This document shows positions 9,317 to 50,443 of a stretch of 64,000 nt of DNA, in pieces (within the stretch, counting starts at the first letter, position 1; every line of letters begins with the position of its first letter). Position numbers and translations under genes: made by a program. The notes beneath the pieces were generated by a model, which made no database searches, was not told where the DNA came from, and saw only the letters and a list, made by a program, of their open reading frames with translations. Origin of the DNA: an uncultured bacterium (GTDB lineage Bacteria; Verrucomicrobiota; Lentisphaeria; Victivallales; UBA1829); contig CADCMR010000001.1 in the NCBI GenBank assembly GCA_902802585.1, positions 129,223-193,222 of the forward strand, read 5' to 3'.

Positions 9317-11073
9317 GGAATTGGTTCCTCCTCGGTCGCGGATTCGCCGGTTACACCGGATTCAGAGGTCACGCCGGATTCGGCGGGGGCGGCGTCCTGA
9401 CGCTTTTTTTCAAGTTCGCGAATCATTTTTTCGCGTTCGGTCTGGGATTCCGGTGCGAGCGGTCCGATGTCGGTGCTGTAGACGTTGATCGCACCGTCGA
9501 GATTTCCTTCTTTCAGGAGCTGGTCGGCTTTTTCGTTCAGGTTTCCCATGAGGTTCGCGACGGCCGCGTCGGACGCCTTCTTAAGATCGGCTATGATATT
9601 GAGCGCTTCAAGCTCGTACTCCCCGGAAGATGTGAATGTGTCCAGGTCCTCGATTGCTTTCCTGAATCCGAACCCGTTTTCCATGGCCTGCGCCGCCGCC
9701 TTCTTCGCTTCCTCGAACAGCCCGGACGCCTGCGTGTCGATGTCCTCCCCGGCGATGGTAATCTCCGCTCCGAGCGCCTTTGTGGACGGACGGACGTGCT
9801 GCGGAATCTGTTCCCCGGAGGGCATGGCGAATCCGGGAAGTTCCCGGACCGCGGTTTCCTGTTCCTGCGGCGCGGCGGGCTTCCCCGTCCGTCTTGATGC
9901 GGCGTGTTCCTTCAGGATGAGGGCTCCGGCGCCCGCCAGGATCAGCAGGCAGAGGAGCGCGGCGACGACGGGAAGGAGCCTGGACTGTTTCTCCCCGGCG
10001 GTCCGTCCGGTCAGCGCCGGAGTCCGGACATACGGGACGGCTCCGCGCGTGGTCGAGGGAAGCGGCGCATCCGCGAGGAACGCCTCTAGGTCGGCGAGGA
10101 GTTCTTCCGGGGTTCCGTAGCGGTCGTCGGGGCGTTTCTGGATGCAGCGCATGACGATGTAGTCGAAGTCGATGGGTACGCCGTGCATGTAGGTGCTGGG
10201 GACGAGCGGTTCGACAGAGATGTGCATGTGGCGGAGTTCGGAGCGGGTCTGCGGCTCGAACGGGAGGCGTCCGGTCACGAGCTGGTACATGGTCACGCCG
10301 AGTGAATAGATGTCCGAGCGGATGTCGCAGGATTCGGAGTCGATGTATTGTTCCGGGGACATGTATTCGAGCGTGCCGAAGCTCGTTTTCCGTGCCGATT
10401 TTTCCGGATCGATTTCGTCCAGGACGAGCGCGCTGTTCGCCGCCGCGGCGGCCGTCGAGTCGAGCTTCGCGAGACCGAGGTCCGTGAGCTTGTATTCGCC
10501 GTTCGCGGAGAGCATGATGTTGTCCGGCTTGATGTCCCTGTGCACGATGCCGAGCCCGGAGGTCACGACCAGCGCCCGGCAGATTTCCGCGCCGATCTTC
10601 GCGGTCTCCTTCGCGGAGAAGAATCCATTTTCCAGTATTTTGTCCGCCAGCGTGCCGCCGGGAAGGTACTCCATGACCAGGTACGGGACGCCGTTCGTGT
10701 CCCTGCCCGTCTCGTGGACCTTGACGATGTTCGGGTGGACCGCCTTCGCGTAGGCTTTGATGGCGTGAAGGAACTGGTCGCGGGTCGGCCTGTCCGCGGC
10801 GTATTCCGGGAGGAGCGTCTTGATCGCAACGGGGATGCCGAGGTCGGGATGGATGCCCTCGTAAACGCAGTTCAGCGCGCCGCGCCCGAGGTAGCGCACG
10901 ACGGTGTAGCGTCCGATGGACTCGGGCGGCGGCAGGTCGGGCAGGGAAAACTCCTCCTCGACGGTCGAATCGTCGATCCGGAACGTCGCTTTGCAGGCGC
11001 AGACGGCGAGCCTTCCATGGTCGACATGGGGGATTTCGCTGACTCTCTGGCACTGCGGGCAACGTATCTTCAT
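9313..11073 (-). CDS. Membrane Ser/Thr protein kinase with zinc-ribbon N-terminus
   Basis: A 586-residue PknB-type kinase. It opens with a CPQC...CACK zinc-ribbon-like segment (residues 5-30). The kinase domain runs from about 52 to 330, with the ATP lysine in VAIKTL, catalytic HRDIKPDN near 177, DLG in place of DFG, and SPEQ in place of APE. A single membrane segment lies at about 363-385. The outer part has a coiled-coil character near 440-560 rather than PASTA repeats, so it does not look like a muropeptide sensor. Its position directly after murG, in a unit headed by ftsW, suggests control of wall growth or division (inference). No matching phosphatase gene is in the window. Confidence 0.93.
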   Translation of the reverse strand: MKIRCPQCQRVSEIPHVDHGRLAVCACKATFRIDDSTVEEEFSLPDLPPPESIGRYTVVRYLGRGALNCVYEGIHPDLGIPVAIKTLLPEYAADRPTRDQFLHAIKAYAKAVHPNIVKVHETGRDTNGVPYLVMEYLPGGTLADKILENGFFSAKETAKIGAEICRALVVTSGLGIVHRDIKPDNIMLSANGEYKLTDLGLAKLDSTAAAAANSALVLDEIDPEKSARKTSFGTLEYMSPEQYIDSESCDIRSDIYSLGVTMYQLVTGRLPFEPQTRSELRHMHISVEPLVPSTYMHGVPIDFDYIVMRCIQKRPDDRYGTPEELLADLEAFLADAPLPSTTRGAVPYVRTPALTGRTAGEKQSRLLPVVAALLCLLILAGAGALILKEHAASRRTGKPAAPQEQETAVRELPGFAMPSGEQIPQHVRPSTKALGAEITIAGEDIDTQASGLFEEAKKAAAQAMENGFGFRKAIEDLDTFTSSGEYELEALNIIADLKKASDAAVANLMGNLNEKADQLLKEGNLDGAINVYSTDIGPLAPESQTEREKMIRELEKKRQDAAPAESGVTSESGVTGESATEEEPIP

Positions 11074-36967: not shown

Positions 36968-38914
36968 TTACTTCGGGTTGGTCAGGAGATTGATGTCGGT
37001 GTTGAGGAGGTCGAGGGAGGGTTTCTCCTCGAGGTTCAAGACCAGGTTGCGGACGTCGATCTCGTTCGATATGATGTACTTGCGGATGCCGCTGCAGTCG
37101 TTTTCGAGGAAGTCCAGGTAGGTGCGGAGCTTGAACATGCCGGGGAGGTGGCGGTAGGATTCGAGCTGGCTTTCGAACCGGGAGGCGTCCGCGAGGGCGA
37201 CGCTGGCGGTGTCGTACTTGTAGGCTTCGGCGGCGCCGAGGATGCGCGTCGCTTCGACCTTGGCGGATTCGACCGTGGTGATGCTGTACTCGTTCGCCTT
37301 GGAGATCATCTTCACGGCGTCCTCCTGGGCGCACACGACGTCCTGGAACGCCCCGGCGACGTCGACGCCGCCGCCCGGCTCGCTGCTGCCGATGGGCGGA
37401 TGCGCGTCGTGCATGTTGATGCCGACGAGCCTGATGCCGAGACCGATGCGGTCGCACGCCTTCTGGATGCGGTCGTACAGGTTCACGGCGACCTGTTCGC
37501 GTCCGGAGGAAATGTCGGTGATGAAGTCGGTGCTGGCGAAGTAGCGCGTGGCTTCAGCCTGGCCGACCGCGAGGAGCGTCTCCTTCACGTTGTCGAAATT
37601 GAACGCGTAGTCGAACGGGCGCTCGGGATCGGCGGTGTAGAAGACGGGGAGGGAGACCTCAAGGATGGATGCGAGCTGCGCGCCGGTTTTGCCCTGCTGC
37701 TTCACCGCCACGAGGAACTTGTTTTCATGCTGGTAGTTGTCGCCGGTCCAGAGGATGACTTTGGCGTTGCGTCCGGCGTTCAGGACGGATCCGAGCGTGG
37801 CCTCCTGCACGTTCTTGACGGGGACGCGGAGAATCTTCTCGCAGGGCCACGGCAGTTTGAAGTGGATGCCGGCGTCAAGCGGCTGCGATTCGCGGTCCAC
37901 CGCGCCGAAGATCTCGCGGATGCCGATTTCGCCGGGATTGACCTGGGCGATGCAGGTGAAGAGCCAGAGGACCGCCGCCCAGACCATCAGCGCCGGGATG
38001 ATCGCCTTCCGCAGGACCAGGTAGATCCCGGTCCGCGAGATCTGGAATCCGAACTGGTAGTCCAGCGAATCCGAGATGTTGCGCACCACGCCCCCCGGTT
38101 CGGTGAAGATCGCGAGCAGACGGCTTTCGTACACCGGGCGCACCTCCTCCAGCGTGCGGGGGCGGTAGAACTCGATGATGAAGCTCACGAGGTGTTCGGC
38201 GGCGAAGACCGCGAGGACCCAGAAGACGATTTTCGTCAGCGGCGCCGCCCATCCGGTCCTGCCGTAGTTGATGAAAAGCGCCGAAACCGCGCTTATGAAC
38301 AGCACGATGGCGAAGCAGATCAGCCAGCTGCCGACCGGGCGCAGGTAGCGGAATTCGCGGATGCGGGACTGTCCGACCAGGAACACGCCGGTGAAGTACG
38401 CGAAGAGCGCCGAGATCGCGCCGAGGAACGCCAGGTTGATCGGGTTCTTCGGCGTCAGCACGAGCGTGGCGGGATCGGTCGCGCCGAGCGTGGAGTTTTT
38501 CCAGAAGAACCAGAACGCAGGGACGGAGAGCAGAAAGACGAGGAGCGAGACGGCGGACGGGATGTACTTGTTGAAGTTTTCGAGCGTGCGTTTGGCGGTA
38601 AACCGGACGTCCTCGCTCACATCGAGGATGGAATTCACGTTCGACTTGCGCTGTTCCAGGATGATCTTTTCCTGCTCCTCCTCCGCCATCTTCCGCAGAA
38701 ACGCGGCGTGCACGAGGGCGCAGACCGAGAAGAGGAACGCCAGCGTGACGGGGTACAGCGAGAGCGTGAACGTCTCCATGCCTGCCCATTTCGTCGCGGG
38801 ACCCGCCACGGTCACTACGACCGCGAGGATGAAGGACAGGATGAGGGAAATGATGGCGATGCGCCCTGCGAGTCTGGCGCGTTCGATGGTGCCGCTGAGA
38901 TCGCCGTTTTTCAT
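36968..38914 (-). CDS. Large multi-pass membrane protein with Band 7/HflK-like domain
   Basis: A 648-residue protein. Residues 15-260 hold about six membrane segments, interrupted by a charged cytoplasmic loop (about 70-120). A further membrane segment (about 305-325) leads into a C-terminal SPFH/Band 7 domain whose start, GEIGIREIFGAVDRESQPLDAG then IHFKLPWPCEK, is typical of HflK. The last 150 residues are helical. Normal HflK has one membrane segment and about 400 residues and pairs with HflC; here the membrane part is much extended and no hflC follows. A role in organising membrane proteases is a guess. It heads the six-gene minus-strand unit. Confidence 0.85.
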   Translation of the reverse strand: MKNGDLSGTIERARLAGRIAIISLILSFILAVVVTVAGPATKWAGMETFTLSLYPVTLAFLFSVCALVHAAFLRKMAEEEQEKIILEQRKSNVNSILDVSEDVRFTAKRTLENFNKYIPSAVSLLVFLLSVPAFWFFWKNSTLGATDPATLVLTPKNPINLAFLGAISALFAYFTGVFLVGQSRIREFRYLRPVGSWLICFAIVLFISAVSALFINYGRTGWAAPLTKIVFWVLAVFAAEHLVSFIIEFYRPRTLEEVRPVYESRLLAIFTEPGGVVRNISDSLDYQFGFQISRTGIYLVLRKAIIPALMVWAAVLWLFTCIAQVNPGEIGIREIFGAVDRESQPLDAGIHFKLPWPCEKILRVPVKNVQEATLGSVLNAGRNAKVILWTGDNYQHENKFLVAVKQQGKTGAQLASILEVSLPVFYTADPERPFDYAFNFDNVKETLLAVGQAEATRYFASTDFITDISSGREQVAVNLYDRIQKACDRIGLGIRLVGINMHDAHPPIGSSEPGGGVDVAGAFQDVVCAQEDAVKMISKANEYSITTVESAKVEATRILGAAEAYKYDTASVALADASRFESQLESYRHLPGMFKLRTYLDFLENDCSGIRKYIISNEIDVRNLVLNLEEKPSLDLLNTDINLLTNPK

Positions 38915-39133: not shown

Positions 39134-39823
39134 ATGGAAAAAAACAATTCTCTCCTGAACGAACTGCACAGAATCGATATTTCCGGCGCCGTGAATCCGG
39201 CTTTCATGCAGGGAGCCAATTCCGGACAGAACGCCTCACAGCCGCTGCCTCAGCCGCTGTCTCAACCGCTGTCCCAGCCGGTTCAAGCCCCGCCGCCCCA
39301 AACTCCGCCTCAGCCTGTCGTTTCCAAGCCGCTATCCGAGGCGATGCAGCGCCGCGTGACCGATTTCCGCCTGTCGCGTCGCGACCTCGCCGTGCGGATC
39401 GCGGAATCCCTGGCCGGGATCGAACGCGGGATCGAGGATTCCGAACGCACGCTTCAGGTGCTTAAACCGCGCCGGGAACACCTGGCGTCCATCGCCGCGG
39501 AGCTGAACAAGGAGTCCCCGCTGGACGGCGACGGCGCATTGACGCAGTCCCAGATCGCCTCGGAGTCGCGCCGCCTGGAAGAACTCCGCCTGGACGCCTG
39601 CCGCATGATCGCGGAGTCCGGCGCGACGACCCAGGTCATTCCGCTCCCGGCGCAGAAAAAGACGTCCTCGTTCGACGGCGTCGACTGGGGATCGATCACG
39701 TTCGGGCAGCTCTGCCGCATCGGCTGGGGCGTCTTCTTCCCGGTCATCGTGTCGATCGTCCTGGCGTCACTTCTGATCGGGGCTGCGCTTATCGCGGCGT
39801 TCAACGGGACGATCCGCTGGTAA
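39134..39823 (+). CDS. Tail-anchored coiled-coil protein, unknown function
   Basis: A 229-residue protein. The N-terminal 70 residues are disordered, with repeated PQPLSQPL units. A helical, charged region (about 75-165) of coiled-coil type follows, and one membrane segment lies near the C-terminus (about 200-222). The ATG follows GGAG at eight bases; the very long open frame upstream is non-coding shadow of the opposite strand. No family is recognised. It shares one base with the next gene (TAATG), so the two are translated together. Confidence 0.78.
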   Translation: MEKNNSLLNELHRIDISGAVNPAFMQGANSGQNASQPLPQPLSQPLSQPVQAPPPQTPPQPVVSKPLSEAMQRRVTDFRLSRRDLAVRIAESLAGIERGIEDSERTLQVLKPRREHLASIAAELNKESPLDGDGALTQSQIASESRRLEELRLDACRMIAESGATTQVIPLPAQKKTSSFDGVDWGSITFGQLCRIGWGVFFPVIVSIVLASLLIGAALIAAFNGTIRW

Positions 39824-40038
39824 TGAAAGCGACGGGCTCGAAACGAGGCAGAGGCGGAAGCGGCGGCGGAGTCGCCCGCATCAACCATCTGAAGCTCCCG
39901 AACAGCGGGCAGGACAGCGGGCAGAACATCGAAAGCCGTGCGGAACGCTCCCTGATGTTCCGCAGGCTCTGGCTTTTCCTGCTGACCGCCGCGCTCGTGC
40001 TGGTCGGCCTGGCATCGGTGTTCGGCGTCCGTTTTTGA
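39823..40038 (+). CDS. Small basic membrane protein
   Basis: A 71-residue protein with a Gly/Arg/Lys-rich start (KRGRGGSGGG), a middle part with QDSGQN, and one C-terminal membrane segment (about residues 48-66). Its start overlaps the previous stop by one base. The pair look like partner tail-anchored proteins. The C-terminus converges on the DUF2752 gene only 12 bases away. No family is recognised. Confidence 0.7.
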   Translation: MKATGSKRGRGGSGGGVARINHLKLPNSGQDSGQNIESRAERSLMFRRLWLFLLTAALVLVGLASVFGVRF

Positions 40039-40050
40039 ATCTCCCCGGAG

Positions 40051-40455
40051 TTACGGCAGCGGGACCGGCGCCAGATAGGTGAACGGCGCGAATGGGATGT
40101 TCCGCAGGATTGAGAATCCGATCACGGCTGCCGCAATGGCGACCGCCACGGCCCGTTTCAGGGAGATTTCCGGCTTCACGATCAGGACAACGAGCATTGT
40201 GCCCAGCGGGATCAGCAGCGCATTATTGTGCAGGCTCGACCTGACGTCGCCGTGCAGCAGCGCCGACAGCGCGCGCGTCGCGCCGCATCCGGGGCAGTAC
40301 AGCCCGGTCATCTCATGGAACATGCACCTCGGCAGCCATTTCGCGTAGCGGCTGCCCGGCGGAACCAGCAGCAGGACGGCGCACGCCGCCGCGCCCAGGG
40401 CGAGGAGGAAAAAGAGCGGGAAGAGCTTCTGCTTGTTGAAGGATGTTGTTTTCAT
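40051..40455 (-). CDS. DUF2752 family membrane protein
   Basis: A 134-residue protein with three membrane segments and the DUF2752 signature YCPGCGATRALSALLHGD near residue 52. Family function is unknown. The start could be this ATG or a TTG six codons earlier; neither has a clear ribosome site. It follows the second CD225 protein gene by 24 bases and is probably the last gene of that unit. DUF2752 genes often accompany small zinc-ribbon and CD225/TM2-type membrane proteins (from memory, not checked). Confidence 0.87.
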   Translation of the reverse strand: MKTTSFNKQKLFPLFFLLALGAAACAVLLLVPPGSRYAKWLPRCMFHEMTGLYCPGCGATRALSALLHGDVRSSLHNNALLIPLGTMLVVLIVKPEISLKRAVAVAIAAAVIGFSILRNIPFAPFTYLAPVPLP

Positions 40456-40479
40456 GGCGCGGGGGATGTCCAATCCTGC

Positions 40480-40875
40480 TCAACTCTCAATCTCCGTCAG
40501 ACCGGGCGCGATCAGCTCCATCAGGCGCGGCAGGATGAGCATGCCCAGGCATAGCGCCGCCGCCGAAAGGATGATGGCGGTCCAGCTCCAAATCTTTCCG
40601 GTGCGCGCCGCCCGTCGCGCGCCTTCGAAGTCGCCGCTTTGAACCATGTTCGACGCCAGAACGGCGTAGATCAGCGCCACGATGCCGATCACGTTGCCGA
40701 ACACGACCGCGACGATGGCGAGCGTGAATCCGCAGTCGATCTTCGGCGGCGGGGCGGATGGTTTCGCGGGCGCTGTCCCGCGGGGCGCGACCGAAGCCGA
40801 TTCCGCCTTCTGTCCGCAACGGGGGCAGAAACATGCGTCGGGCGGGAGCTGTTGTCCGCATTGCTTGCAGAACAT
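40480..40875 (-). CDS. Zinc-ribbon plus CD225/dispanin-like membrane protein
   Basis: A 131-residue protein. A zinc ribbon (CKQCG...CPRCG, residues 3-21) is followed by a Pro/Ala-rich linker and a CD225/dispanin-type module. That module has a first membrane segment (about 50-72), then SNMVQSGDFEGARRAARTGKIW, the usual [A/S]-x-GDxxGA-x(4-5)-K pattern, then a second segment (about 93-115). CD225 proteins include eukaryotic antiviral IFITMs and many uncharacterised bacterial ones. It lies 40 bases after a larger protein of the same architecture. Confidence 0.87.
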   Translation of the reverse strand: MFCKQCGQQLPPDACFCPRCGQKAESASVAPRGTAPAKPSAPPPKIDCGFTLAIVAVVFGNVIGIVALIYAVLASNMVQSGDFEGARRAARTGKIWSWTAIILSAAALCLGMLILPRLMELIAPGLTEIES

Positions 40876-40915
40876 CGTGGTGGTTCCGTGTTTTCAGCGG
40901 TTCCTGCCGGGGCGC

Positions 40916-41986
40916 TTAAGGTTTTCCTGTCCCTGTCGCGGCGGATACGGCTTCTCCAAGCGTACTGAAAATGGAGGATCCGCCGCCGCAGACGATCCCC
41001 AGGATAATGGAGATCCAGCAGAACGTCTTCGCAAGGTTCGAGTATTTCTGCGCCTGTTCGTAGTTGCCGACCTGAACCTCTCGGGAGACCATTGAGGCGA
41101 ATATGATCGCCACGATTCCGACCGGCATACAGCAGCAGAGCGTCGAGAAGATCGCGAATCCCATGTGCGAGTCGATTTCGGCGGGATCGCCCACGACTTC
41201 GGCATTTTTCGCCTCGTTGCGGTCGCCGTCGCTGCCCCAGTGAATCTCCTGTCCGGACTCCTTCAGGGGGTTCACGAATCCTGTTTCCCCGCCGGATGTT
41301 TCGTTCGTGTTTCCGCCCGCGGTTCCGCTGTAGAAATCATTCACAGCGGACTGCGCGGCGGGCTGTTCCGTTGCGGCGGGGTTGGCGGATTCTGGTTGTT
41401 CCAGCGCGGCATCCTCCGTTTTTTCCATCGGTTCGTCATGGAAAACTGTTTTGCCGGAGTTCTTCAGCGGGTTCACGAATCCGACCGGTTTGAGGGGCGG
41501 TACAGAGGGCATGGGCGGCACCGAGGGCACCGGAGGCGGCACAGAGGGCATAGGCGGCGCCGAGGGCGCCGGAGGCGGCACAGATGGCGCCGGAGGCGGC
41601 ACAGATGGCATGGGCGGCGCCGAGGGCGCCGGGGGACGGTTTACGGAGGTGCGGACAATGCTGTCGCCGACCTCCTTGTTCCTGTCGGAGAGACTGAACT
41701 TCTTCTTTCCGGAATCCGACAGGCTGAATTTTTTCTGCCCGGAATCAGAAAGGCTGAACTTCTTCTGCCCGGAGTCGCCGGAGAGGCTGAATTCCTTCCG
41801 GTCGGAGTCGATCGCGTATCCCGAACGGTTCAGGTCCTTTTCCTTCGCGTAATCGGGAAGGTTCCTGATGTCGCGTCTGGACTTTTCCTCGTCGTATAAA
41901 TGGTCGCCGCCGGACCGCTTGGAACCGCACGCGGGGCAGGATGCCGCATCGTCCGGGATTTGTCTGCCGCAGTTTTTACAGAACAT
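40916..41986 (-). CDS. Zinc-ribbon, repeat-linker, CD225/dispanin-like protein
   Basis: A 356-residue protein. A zinc ribbon (CKNCG...CPACG, residues 3-21) is followed by three to four copies of a ten-residue KKFSLSDSGQ unit (about 65-100) and a Pro-rich stretch of PSVPPPAPS-type repeats (about 115-160). A linker has two FVNPLK motifs (FVNPLKNSG and FVNPLKESG). The C-terminal CD225 module (about 275-345) shows STLCCCMPVGIVAIIFA and VGNYEQAQKYSNLAKTF. The Cys-rich CCC run is a likely palmitoylation-like or metal site in homologues. The start follows AAAGGAAC. A strong promoter lies upstream. Repeats may vary between strains. Confidence 0.87.
   Translation of the reverse strand: MFCKNCGRQIPDDAASCPACGSKRSGGDHLYDEEKSRRDIRNLPDYAKEKDLNRSGYAIDSDRKEFSLSGDSGQKKFSLSDSGQKKFSLSDSGKKKFSLSDRNKEVGDSIVRTSVNRPPAPSAPPMPSVPPPAPSVPPPAPSAPPMPSVPPPVPSVPPMPSVPPLKPVGFVNPLKNSGKTVFHDEPMEKTEDAALEQPESANPAATEQPAAQSAVNDFYSGTAGGNTNETSGGETGFVNPLKESGQEIHWGSDGDRNEAKNAEVVGDPAEIDSHMGFAIFSTLCCCMPVGIVAIIFASMVSREVQVGNYEQAQKYSNLAKTFCWISIILGIVCGGGSSIFSTLGEAVSAATGTGKP
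41691..41795. repeat. About three tandem 30-base coding repeats
   Basis: Tandem 30-base units encode the ten-residue SLSDSGQKKF-type motif in the large CD225 protein. Copies differ at a few third positions. A separate Pro-rich repeat tract lies at about 41510-41640. Confidence 0.78.
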
Positions 41987-42101: not shown

Positions 42102-43829
42102 TCATGGGACCGCCGGATTGTCGCCGGGAGACCTGACCGTGCCGCCGTTGGCGTTTTTTGCCTCATTTGCGACGGCGGGGACGAGCCGGACCGCAAGATA
42201 TTTCTTGTGTCCGAGCTGACCTTCGAACTGAGGGACGATCGATCTATGCGCCGCTTCGACGCATTCTGTGAACGTTTCGAGATAACGTTTTCCCTTCCTG
42301 AGGATGACAAGTTCGTTCCCGAGCATGTCGAACCCCTCTTCGACGGTGCGGTAGGCGTAATGCTCGTCGGTTTCCTGGTCCTCGTCACAGATGAAGAATA
42401 CCTGCCTGCGGCGAGCGTTGTTCAACTCGGCGAGATACTTGATGCCGTCATGGTCCGCGTTCACGTTGAAGAAGAAGACCCGGTCATTGCCGGATGCACG
42501 TTCGATCGCCTCGACGAACGGACGGGAATCCTCCCGCGCGGAGATCGCCGGGACGATGCCGAGCACGAGGAACACCGCCATGGAGCAGCACGCCAGCGAG
42601 AAACGTTCCGTCCAGGATTCGTGCCCGCGGAAACAGTACACGGCGGCGGCGACGAGCAGGATGCCGCCGAGATAGTGGCAGTACGGGATCCACGCAGCCG
42701 GGACGAAGAAAAAGGATACGGTTATGCAGACGGCGATCCCGAGTGCGGCGGCGTACGGGAACAGCAGGAGCACAAGCCGTGCGAGCCGGACGATGCGGTC
42801 CCGCCAGGCGTCGGAGAGTTTCAGGTCGAGGCGGGCGTGGAGCATGCCCCATGCACTGGAGAGCGCCATGAACGGCACGGCGAGCGTCATGTAGCGCGTG
42901 TGCTGGCATCCGGGGATCGTGAGCAGGATCTCGACTGCGAACAGGAATCCGAGCCAGGGACCGACGGGCGCTTTCAGCAGGGCGCGTTTGCCCGCGATGA
43001 GCGTGTAGAGGAACGGGATGCTGAGCGGGGCGTAGGTCGGGAGGCTGCCAAGCAGATAGAACAGCACCGATCCGCCGTCCATCCGATTGCCGAACTGCCA
43101 TTCGTAGAACTGCGCCCACATCTCGTCGCCGCCGACCCGGTGCAGCAGCCACCACGCGAACCCGACGCATCCGGCAAGCACGAGCGCTCCCGCCGCGCCG
43201 AACGCGAAGAACTGTTTCCATCGGCCCGACATCGCGAGCCATCCCGCCGTGCCCGCGCCGAGCAGCACGGGCCCCATCGGTCCGCGGACCGCGAAGCAGA
43301 TTGCCAGAAGCGCCGCGAAAGCGAGCGTGGAAAGGAAGATGTTGAGTCGGTCTTCCTGGAGCAGGGCGACCATCGTGACGCCGGCGGCGCAGACGGGGAG
43401 GTCGATGCCGAACCCGAGGATGGCGTTGAAATACTCGAACGAGACCAGCGAGAGCATGAGCGCCCAGAGACCGAGACCCTTTTCCGCCTTCTCCCCGATC
43501 CGCCATGTCATTGCGATCGAATATGCCCCACAGACCATCGACGGCAGCGTCACTGTCCAGCGCGCCACCACGCGCCCGCAGAATGTCGCCAGCCACGACA
43601 GGATGAACATCGTCGACGGATAGTCGTAATACGGCTCGCCGAAGACGGTCGGGAATGGCGTGAGCGGGTAATCCGTCATGTCTCCCGTCATAAAGAGGAA
43701 GCGGACGTCGATCTTCACGCATTCGAGTCCGGCGGACCCGAGGAGGAATAGCGCGAGAATTGAGAGGAAGATGCTGGCGAACGTGTGTCTGCGTGCGAAA
43801 CTGGAAACGGCGTTGATGGCGTTTGACAT
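42102..43829 (-). CDS. GT39/ArnT-like membrane glycosyltransferase
   Basis: A 575-residue polytopic protein of the GT-C fold. About ten membrane segments are followed by a soluble C-terminal domain (about 440-575). The first loop carries the catalytic-type acidic region (residues 40-75, with GDMTDYPL and GEPYYDYPSTMF), as in GT39/PMT and ArnT enzymes that use polyprenyl-phosphate sugars. It would transfer a sugar to lipid A, a glycan or protein on the outer side of the inner membrane; the acceptor is unknown. It is transcribed alone, divergent from tkt. Confidence 0.8.
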   Translation of the reverse strand: MSNAINAVSSFARRHTFASIFLSILALFLLGSAGLECVKIDVRFLFMTGDMTDYPLTPFPTVFGEPYYDYPSTMFILSWLATFCGRVVARWTVTLPSMVCGAYSIAMTWRIGEKAEKGLGLWALMLSLVSFEYFNAILGFGIDLPVCAAGVTMVALLQEDRLNIFLSTLAFAALLAICFAVRGPMGPVLLGAGTAGWLAMSGRWKQFFAFGAAGALVLAGCVGFAWWLLHRVGGDEMWAQFYEWQFGNRMDGGSVLFYLLGSLPTYAPLSIPFLYTLIAGKRALLKAPVGPWLGFLFAVEILLTIPGCQHTRYMTLAVPFMALSSAWGMLHARLDLKLSDAWRDRIVRLARLVLLLFPYAAALGIAVCITVSFFFVPAAWIPYCHYLGGILLVAAAVYCFRGHESWTERFSLACCSMAVFLVLGIVPAISAREDSRPFVEAIERASGNDRVFFFNVNADHDGIKYLAELNNARRRQVFFICDEDQETDEHYAYRTVEEGFDMLGNELVILRKGKRYLETFTECVEAAHRSIVPQFEGQLGHKKYLAVRLVPAVANEAKNANGGTVRSPGDNPAVP

Positions 43830-49575: not shown

Positions 49576-49759
49576 ATCGTTGATTTCAGGGACCGGGTAC
49601 GGCTTTCCGGAGAAATCGCAGTCGCAAGATGTTTGAAATCAACATGGTTTTTTTGGTCCGGCGCGGATGCTCCGAATCGGATGCCATTTGTTTCGAACGG
49701 CGTTTCTCCGGCGTTCCGGGTCTAAAACTTCAACTGTGAATTTGGAGCAGAAAACGAAC

Positions 49760-50443
49760 ATGAAAGAGATTTTCAGCGACGGTCTTTCCGACATCTATGT
49801 TTCACGCGGTCTGGCTTTTCTTGATTTCTACCATCTCGTCCCCGATCAGTACGGGCGTCATGAACGGGTCCCCTTCCTTCGCGTTACGATTCCTATGACG
49901 AAACAGGGGTTCTTCGGTCTTTTCAATACAGGCGATGCCGTCGTGAACCATCTTGTCGAGGTCGGCATTCTTGAGGCTGAACCGGCAGACGGCACATCGG
50001 CGAAACAGACCGCCGCGCCCGCCGCCGGGAAGAAATCCGAAAAGAAGCCTGCCAAGCCAGCTCCCGCGAAGAAGGCGGAATCGAAGCCCGCGGCAAAAAC
50101 CGTCGACAAGACCCCCGCGAAGAAGCCCGCTCCCGTGAAGAAGGTGGAAGCCGCTCCTGCTCCTGTTCCCGCGAAGAAGCCTGCCGCGAAACCCATCCCC
50201 GCTCCTGTGAAGAAAACGGAAGCGAAACCCGCCGCGAAACCTGCTCCGGCAAAGAAAGCTGAAGCTCCGGCTCCTGCGAAGAAAGCGGAAGCGAAACCCG
50301 CCGCAAAATCCGCTCCGGCTTCTGCGAAGAAGGCGGAGGCGAAGCCCGCCGCAAAATCCGCTCCCGCGAAGAAAGTGGAAGCGAAACCTGTTCCGAAATC
50401 TTCCGCGAAGCCTGCGGCGAAGGGAAAAAAGCCCGCGAAATAA
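49760..50443 (+). CDS. Protein with AKP-rich histone H1-like tail
   Basis: A 227-residue protein in two parts. The first 75 residues form a compact domain starting MKEIFSDGLSDIYVSRGLAF, with PFLRVTIPMTKQGFFGLFN, of no family I recognise. Residues 80-227 are nearly all Ala, Lys and Pro (AAKPAPAKKAEAKPAAKS-type units), like eukaryotic H1 or bacterial Lys-rich DNA-binding tails. It would be strongly basic and could compact DNA or bind RNA, but this is inference. Its own promoter and terminator make it monocistronic. Confidence 0.8.
   Translation: MKEIFSDGLSDIYVSRGLAFLDFYHLVPDQYGRHERVPFLRVTIPMTKQGFFGLFNTGDAVVNHLVEVGILEAEPADGTSAKQTAAPAAGKKSEKKPAKPAPAKKAESKPAAKTVDKTPAKKPAPVKKVEAAPAPVPAKKPAAKPIPAPVKKTEAKPAAKPAPAKKAEAPAPAKKAEAKPAAKSAPASAKKAEAKPAAKSAPAKKVEAKPVPKSSAKPAAKGKKPAK
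50020..50440. repeat. Degenerate repeats encoding the AKP-rich tail
   Basis: Short GCGAAGAAG- and GAAGCGAAACCC-type units recur; a unit of about 45-50 bases is nearly repeated between 50277 and 50390. Such tracts are prone to length variation. Confidence 0.75.

Follow-up and report, generated by a model that had tools for sequence, protein, structure and literature searches.

CD225 (dispanin) genes are kept beside DUF2752 genes in a bacterial membrane module

CD225 (dispanin) genes are kept adjacent to genes for DUF2752 proteins, in a constant order, in at least three bacterial phyla. The association is described here from the genome of an uncultured Lentisphaeria species, and the public genomes closest to it are Lentisphaeria/Victivallales ones obtained from rumen samples; "the window" denotes the whole stretch of 64,000 nucleotides that was analysed. 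Membership of these proteins in the CD225 and DUF2752 families is already known, but the module itself is not described in the literature searched. The search yielded no report on DUF2752, or on CD225 together with DUF2752; since preprints and the majority of subscription journals lie outside its coverage, the linkage may already have been recorded elsewhere. The function of bacterial CD225 proteins, given as unknown in the preliminary description, was unstudied at the time of an earlier report (PMC4488726), and the statement holds for the literature searched. DUF2752 is the first genetic partner for the bacterial relatives of IFITM, and having a conserved partner makes the function of bacterial CD225 directly open to experiment on CD225 with DUF2752. 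In turn, the linkage would give DUF2752, which about half of the phylum's sampled genomes carry, its first functional lead.

The minus strand of the window carries three open reading frames in the order CD225a, CD225b and DUF2752. These genes, together with two repeat arrays inside CD225a, are as follows.

40916-41986, minus strand: CD225a, 356 aa; Pfam CD225 E=8.7e-24, 83.9 bits; Zn_Ribbon_1 29.7 bits (cut-off 25); zinc ribbon (residues 2-23), four FSLS repeats (~66-100), Pro-rich linker, two GFVNPLK stretches and CD225 hairpin (272-333)
41694-41773, minus strand: KKFSLSDSGQ repeat array of CD225a, a 30-bp tandem DNA array (TRF period 30, 2.7 copies)
41495-41632, minus strand: Pro-rich repeat array of CD225a, a tandem DNA array (TRF); fast evolving, dN/dS 0.65
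40480-40875, minus strand: CD225b, 131 aa; zinc-ribbon-like N-terminus (two CxxC) and CD225 hairpin; Pfam CD225 E=7.6e-12, 45.6 bits
40051-40455, minus strand: DUF2752, 134 aa from ATG (alternative start TTG 40473); Pfam E=1.8e-18, 66.8 bits

All three proteins lie above the Pfam cut-off for their main family (more than 27.1 bits for CD225/Dispanin, PF04505; more than 27 bits, with a CxxCGxTR core, for DUF2752, PF10825), and the grouping of two CD225 genes with a DUF2752 gene is thus confirmed in its reading frames, coordinates and Pfam matches. As the gaps are short (40 bp between CD225a and CD225b, 24 bp between CD225b and the DUF2752 ATG at 40455), the three genes are predicted to form, and likely do form, one operon; the single promoter-like match upstream, at 42065-42038, is not above chance level. 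No further CD225 or DUF2752 gene above cut-off is found in the whole host genome (2.6 Mb, 31 contigs). Zinc ribbons had been ascribed to both CD225 proteins: the one in CD225a scores above its cut-off, whereas the N-terminal ribbon of CD225b falls below it (DZR, 24.7 vs 27.3 bits) yet retains both CxxC pairs. Similarly, the reported Pro-rich linker is present in the window, but in an alignment of 12 genomes the long form of the Pro array is confined to the source species and its closest relative (L008).

Linkage across genomes was scored where a CD225 gene stood within 3 kb of a DUF2752 gene. Among 198 genomes of the class, CD225 occurs in 48 and DUF2752 in 120, more than double, and the two are linked in 39 of the 48 CD225 genomes; in two of the nine unlinked genomes (G042 and G148), the contig ends on the side expected for DUF2752. 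The remainder of the phylum shows linkage in 25 of 30 CD225 genomes. In Bacteroidia, CD225 is rare (4/198 genomes), and DUF2752 lies directly downstream in all four. Chance alone would give about 0.2% per CD225 gene. Every linked case has both genes on the same strand; within the class this amounts to 58 of 58 linked CD225 genes, with DUF2752 downstream in 57. Furthermore, a 7.5-kb fecal contig reading as a Clostridia-like chromosome presents the series zinc ribbon, CD225 and DUF2752, the ribbon and the hairpin being split over two overlapping reading frames. Co-occurrence follows the same direction: DUF2752 is present in 48/48 class genomes with CD225 vs 72/150 without (Fisher p=4e-13, ignoring shared ancestry), and in 20/20 vs 40/66 at genus level (p=5e-4, again ignoring shared ancestry). 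Some CD225 genes stand away from DUF2752. The neighbours are therefore not random, as a neighbourhood analysis proposed in the preliminary description had left to be seen, and its candidate membrane system is upheld in that CD225 and DUF2752 genes belong together; the genes and their association are solid. Gene fusion was considered as proof of contact and rejected, as no in-frame CD225-DUF2752 fusion occurs among 99 DUF2752 open reading frames.

Other genes do not share this constancy. An all-against-all comparison of the genes flanking the module at 43 loci returned only CD225 (37 loci) and DUF2752 (32 loci) as broadly recurring families, the next most frequent being a prepilin-type-like protein at six loci. 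Outside the genus, 79 neighbours scanned with PADLOC and Pfam belong to varied housekeeping families and show no defence pattern; PADLOC matches among them are sparse and concern broad defence models of the ATPase, ABC or sigma-54 type, and CD225a, CD225b and DUF2752 have no meaningful PADLOC match. Among viral contigs, relatives are limited to zinc-ribbon matches and two unannotated fecal 'phage' records; these contigs supplied no distant DUF2752 sequences with which the alignment could be improved. One of the two records, a 'Bacteriophage sp.' entry with both genes (MT839860.1), contains a permease-like ORF, zinc ribbon, CD225, DUF2752 and a pyrF-like gene; it reads as a bacterial chromosome and is probably mislabelled, and was not counted as viral on account of the permease-like and pyrF-like genes. 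A defence island or phage origin was accordingly rejected. Of the associations that had been put forward for checking, neither defence nor secretion and division thus found backing, the neighbour clustering at the 43 loci having returned no recurrent secretion or division partner.

Within the genus, 11 related contigs hold the module at the same site, with a transketolase gene on one side and genes for an SPFH (Band 7) protein and a DEAD-box helicase on the other. The number of CD225 copies varies from one (L016) through two in most to four (G114). The CD225a orthologues in 11 genomes are 48-74% identical to the window copy, compared to 87-98% for transketolase and SPFH.

Segment-wise dN/dS over 12 CD225a orthologues places the strongest constraint on the zinc ribbon (0.135) and the FSLS repeats (residues 64-101; 0.154), exceeding that on the CD225 hairpin (0.41); the GFVNPLK stretches stand at 0.23-0.24 and the linkers and tail at 0.51-0.72. 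All segments remain below 1, and rapid change is concentrated in the linkers. Three of the four FSLS cores sit in KKFSLS. The repeats are highly diverged at synonymous sites (pS = 0.53), so recent copying does not explain their mutual likeness. The KKFSLS repeats are probably functional, because they are under strong purifying selection (0.15 vs 0.65 in the Pro linker). Elsewhere in the host genome KKFSLS does not recur, apart from one chance match reading KKFWLS; the repeats are restricted to the source genus and are missing in one of its loci (L100). The AlphaFold model of CD225a places helices at 268-284, 289-306 and 309-333 with low confidence (mean pLDDT 49).

Passages of the 2012 dispanin survey (PMC3282796) give the hallmarks of the family as two Cys side by side in helix 1 (the double Cys) together with two loop motifs, G-D and A-x6-A. 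Helix 1 of CD225a carries CCC, which satisfies the double Cys, and its loop has a GN...A motif; in CD225b, G-D and an Ala-rich loop are present and the double Cys is absent, so that it agrees with the hallmarks in part. With other PF04505 proteins (IFITM1-3, PRRT1/SynDIG4, PRRT2 and bacterial dispanins) the present ones share the CD225 domain, two predicted hydrophobic helices at the C-terminus and the G-[DN] loop motif, and CD225a specifically shares the double Cys in the first helix. They differ in the zinc ribbon, the KKFSLS repeats, the tandem paralogues (one to four) and the DUF2752 partner and, unlike IFITM, have no interferon or endosome context. An R-SNARE-like central Arg of IFITM3 (PMC11730294) was also considered; by eye, members of the genus do not retain it where the alignment would place it. 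A PDB search gave one hit, PRRT1/SynDIG4 (9zks, E=2.5e-9); this nearest solved relative is an auxiliary protein of AMPA receptors and has one TM helix in addition to a re-entrant one (PMC13262616). The same survey passages report bacterial members in seven phyla and propose transfer to animals, and they make no mention of this phylum or of a partner gene (PMC3282796).

The DUF2752 protein is an ordinary member of PF10825; the points of note are its linkage to CD225 and a predicted periplasmic Cys triad. It has about three TM helices and the core motif P-x-C-x-F-H-x-x-T-G-L-x-C-P-G-C-G-x-T-R, and the Pfam match covers the full 49-position model with all Cys and T-R present. In an alignment of 67 relatives picked by the CxxCGx[TS] motif, the upstream Cys, which lies outside that motif, is invariant in 67/67, making three invariant Cys; T-G-L, T-R, H-G-D and a C-terminal R-N are strongly conserved. 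By the positive-inside rule the Cys loop is predicted to be periplasmic, because it carries few positive charges (0.08 per residue) compared to the N-flank (0.27) and the post-TM2 loop (0.19). From these features, we infer that the three-Cys C-x9-CPxCG site, formed by C44, C54 and C57 in the 134-aa numbering, may be a metal or disulfide centre. The AlphaFold model (mean pLDDT 58) is too weak to use.

Hairpin proteins of other families also accompany DUF2752. In 36 readable loci of DUF2752 without CD225, hand-picked from match lists and not drawn at random, eight have an adjacent same-strand gene with TM2 (PF05154) or DUF4190 (PF13828) by Pfam, and two more are alike by eye only; other loci adjoin Yip1 or other multi-pass proteins. 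Like CD225a and CD225b, the TM2 and DUF4190 proteins are predicted to combine a cytosolic adaptor with a two-helix hairpin, often beside DUF2752, but the hairpin is of another family and has no CD225 match over cut-off. The N-terminal adaptors of hairpin proteins beside DUF2752 are zinc ribbons or GYF_2 domains, and one CD225 protein (L076) shows both together, each below the Pfam cut-off. As TM2 and DUF4190 proteins with zinc ribbon or GYF_2 stand beside DUF2752, the latter appears to be the constant element of these loci and the adaptor-hairpin protein the variable one.

The reading preferred here, at a probability of about 0.35, is that CD225 proteins serve as auxiliary hairpin subunits of a DUF2752 membrane complex, one that has docking sites in the cytosol and a Cys centre in the periplasm. 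As auxiliary or scaffold subunits, they would pair with the multi-pass DUF2752 protein in the inner membrane; the zinc ribbon and KKFSLS repeats would be cytosolic and provide docking sites for other factors, with the cell's Ser/Thr kinases possibly acting as the switch. DUF2752 would bear the conserved chemistry, with its C-x9-CPxCG site in a periplasm-facing loop as a metal or disulfide centre, and the task of the pair would be to sense or adjust some property of the envelope, not to block viruses. In favour of such a complex, hairpin and adaptor behave as if interchangeable around DUF2752, and the auxiliary role of PRRT1/SynDIG4 was, by analogy, counted for it. Against it, DUF2752 can act without CD225, as it is present in more than twice as many genomes; the lack of fusions and the weak AlphaFold models were also counted against it, as was the fact that the comparisons ignore shared ancestry, and adjacency can be explained by shared regulation. 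Taken further, the latter point would make CD225 and DUF2752 independent of each other, both of them small membrane proteins of general envelope homeostasis, expressed from a common promoter without forming a complex, which is possible but doubtful: each does occur apart from the other and fusions are absent, yet across several phyla the remaining neighbours change and the order and strand do not, and hairpin families substitute for one another beside DUF2752.

As for the kinase switch, the KKFSLS repeats could be structural instead of phosphorylated. A related and rather improbable proposal, likened to a basic-aromatic electrostatic switch, would have KKFSLS bind anionic lipid until Ser phosphorylation releases it, the hairpin acting as an anchor only. 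Purifying selection on the repeats, their uniqueness to CD225a in the genome and the nine Ser/Thr kinase-domain matches of the host would suit such a tether; nevertheless, the net charge per repeat is low, and the repeats, being limited to the genus and missing from L100, cannot account for the module as a whole. Least probable is an IFITM-like defence, in which CD225 would make the inner membrane stiffer or curve it and so keep phage DNA out, DUF2752 acting as helper. Its appeal lies in the homology of CD225 to IFITM (Pfam), in the restriction of influenza virus by mycobacterial CD225 proteins produced in human cells (PMC4488726) and in the faster evolution of CD225a relative to its neighbours; it is opposed by the lack of a defence-island context or meaningful PADLOC match, by the chromosomal position fixed through the genus and by the pattern of fast change, which falls mostly in linkers, no segment reaching a dN/dS of 1. 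An antiviral function of the module is thus unsupported. The auxiliary-subunit reading also admits a broader form, conjectural and on the whole unlikely, in which a widespread and hitherto undescribed class of envelope complexes would have DUF2752 as its core, with different hairpins (CD225, TM2 or DUF4190) that bear swappable zinc ribbon or GYF_2 adaptors as auxiliary subunits around a periplasmic three-Cys centre, and in which animal IFITM and PRRT proteins would descend from such subunits; passages of the 2012 survey propose bacterial CD225 proteins as the source of animal IFITM proteins (PMC3282796).

Several genes of the window deserve mention in their own right. One of the nine kinase domains lies within it (~10105-10908, minus strand). 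The SPFH/Band 7 protein (36968-38914, minus strand; 648 aa) has a long multi-TM N-terminal part and 87-96% identity in the genus; partnership of the SPFH and DEAD genes with the module was rejected, their synteny being limited to the genus and lost in other genera. MreC/MreD/PBP2 were likewise rejected as partners, as they lie on the other strand and their synteny is of genus level and lost elsewhere. Most of the genus keeps two convergent, overlapping genes next to the module (39134-39823 and 39823-40038, plus strand); their products, 229 and 71 aa long, match no Pfam family, and each has a single hydrophobic segment at the C-terminus. A 575-aa multi-pass membrane protein without Pfam match is encoded upstream of CD225a at 42102-43829 (minus strand), its gene being absent from about half of the genus loci. 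Finally, sequence inspection of the gene at 49667-50443 (plus strand), which adjoins the mreC-, mreD- and PBP2-like genes, reveals a histone H1-like low-complexity tail rich in Ala, Pro and Lys.
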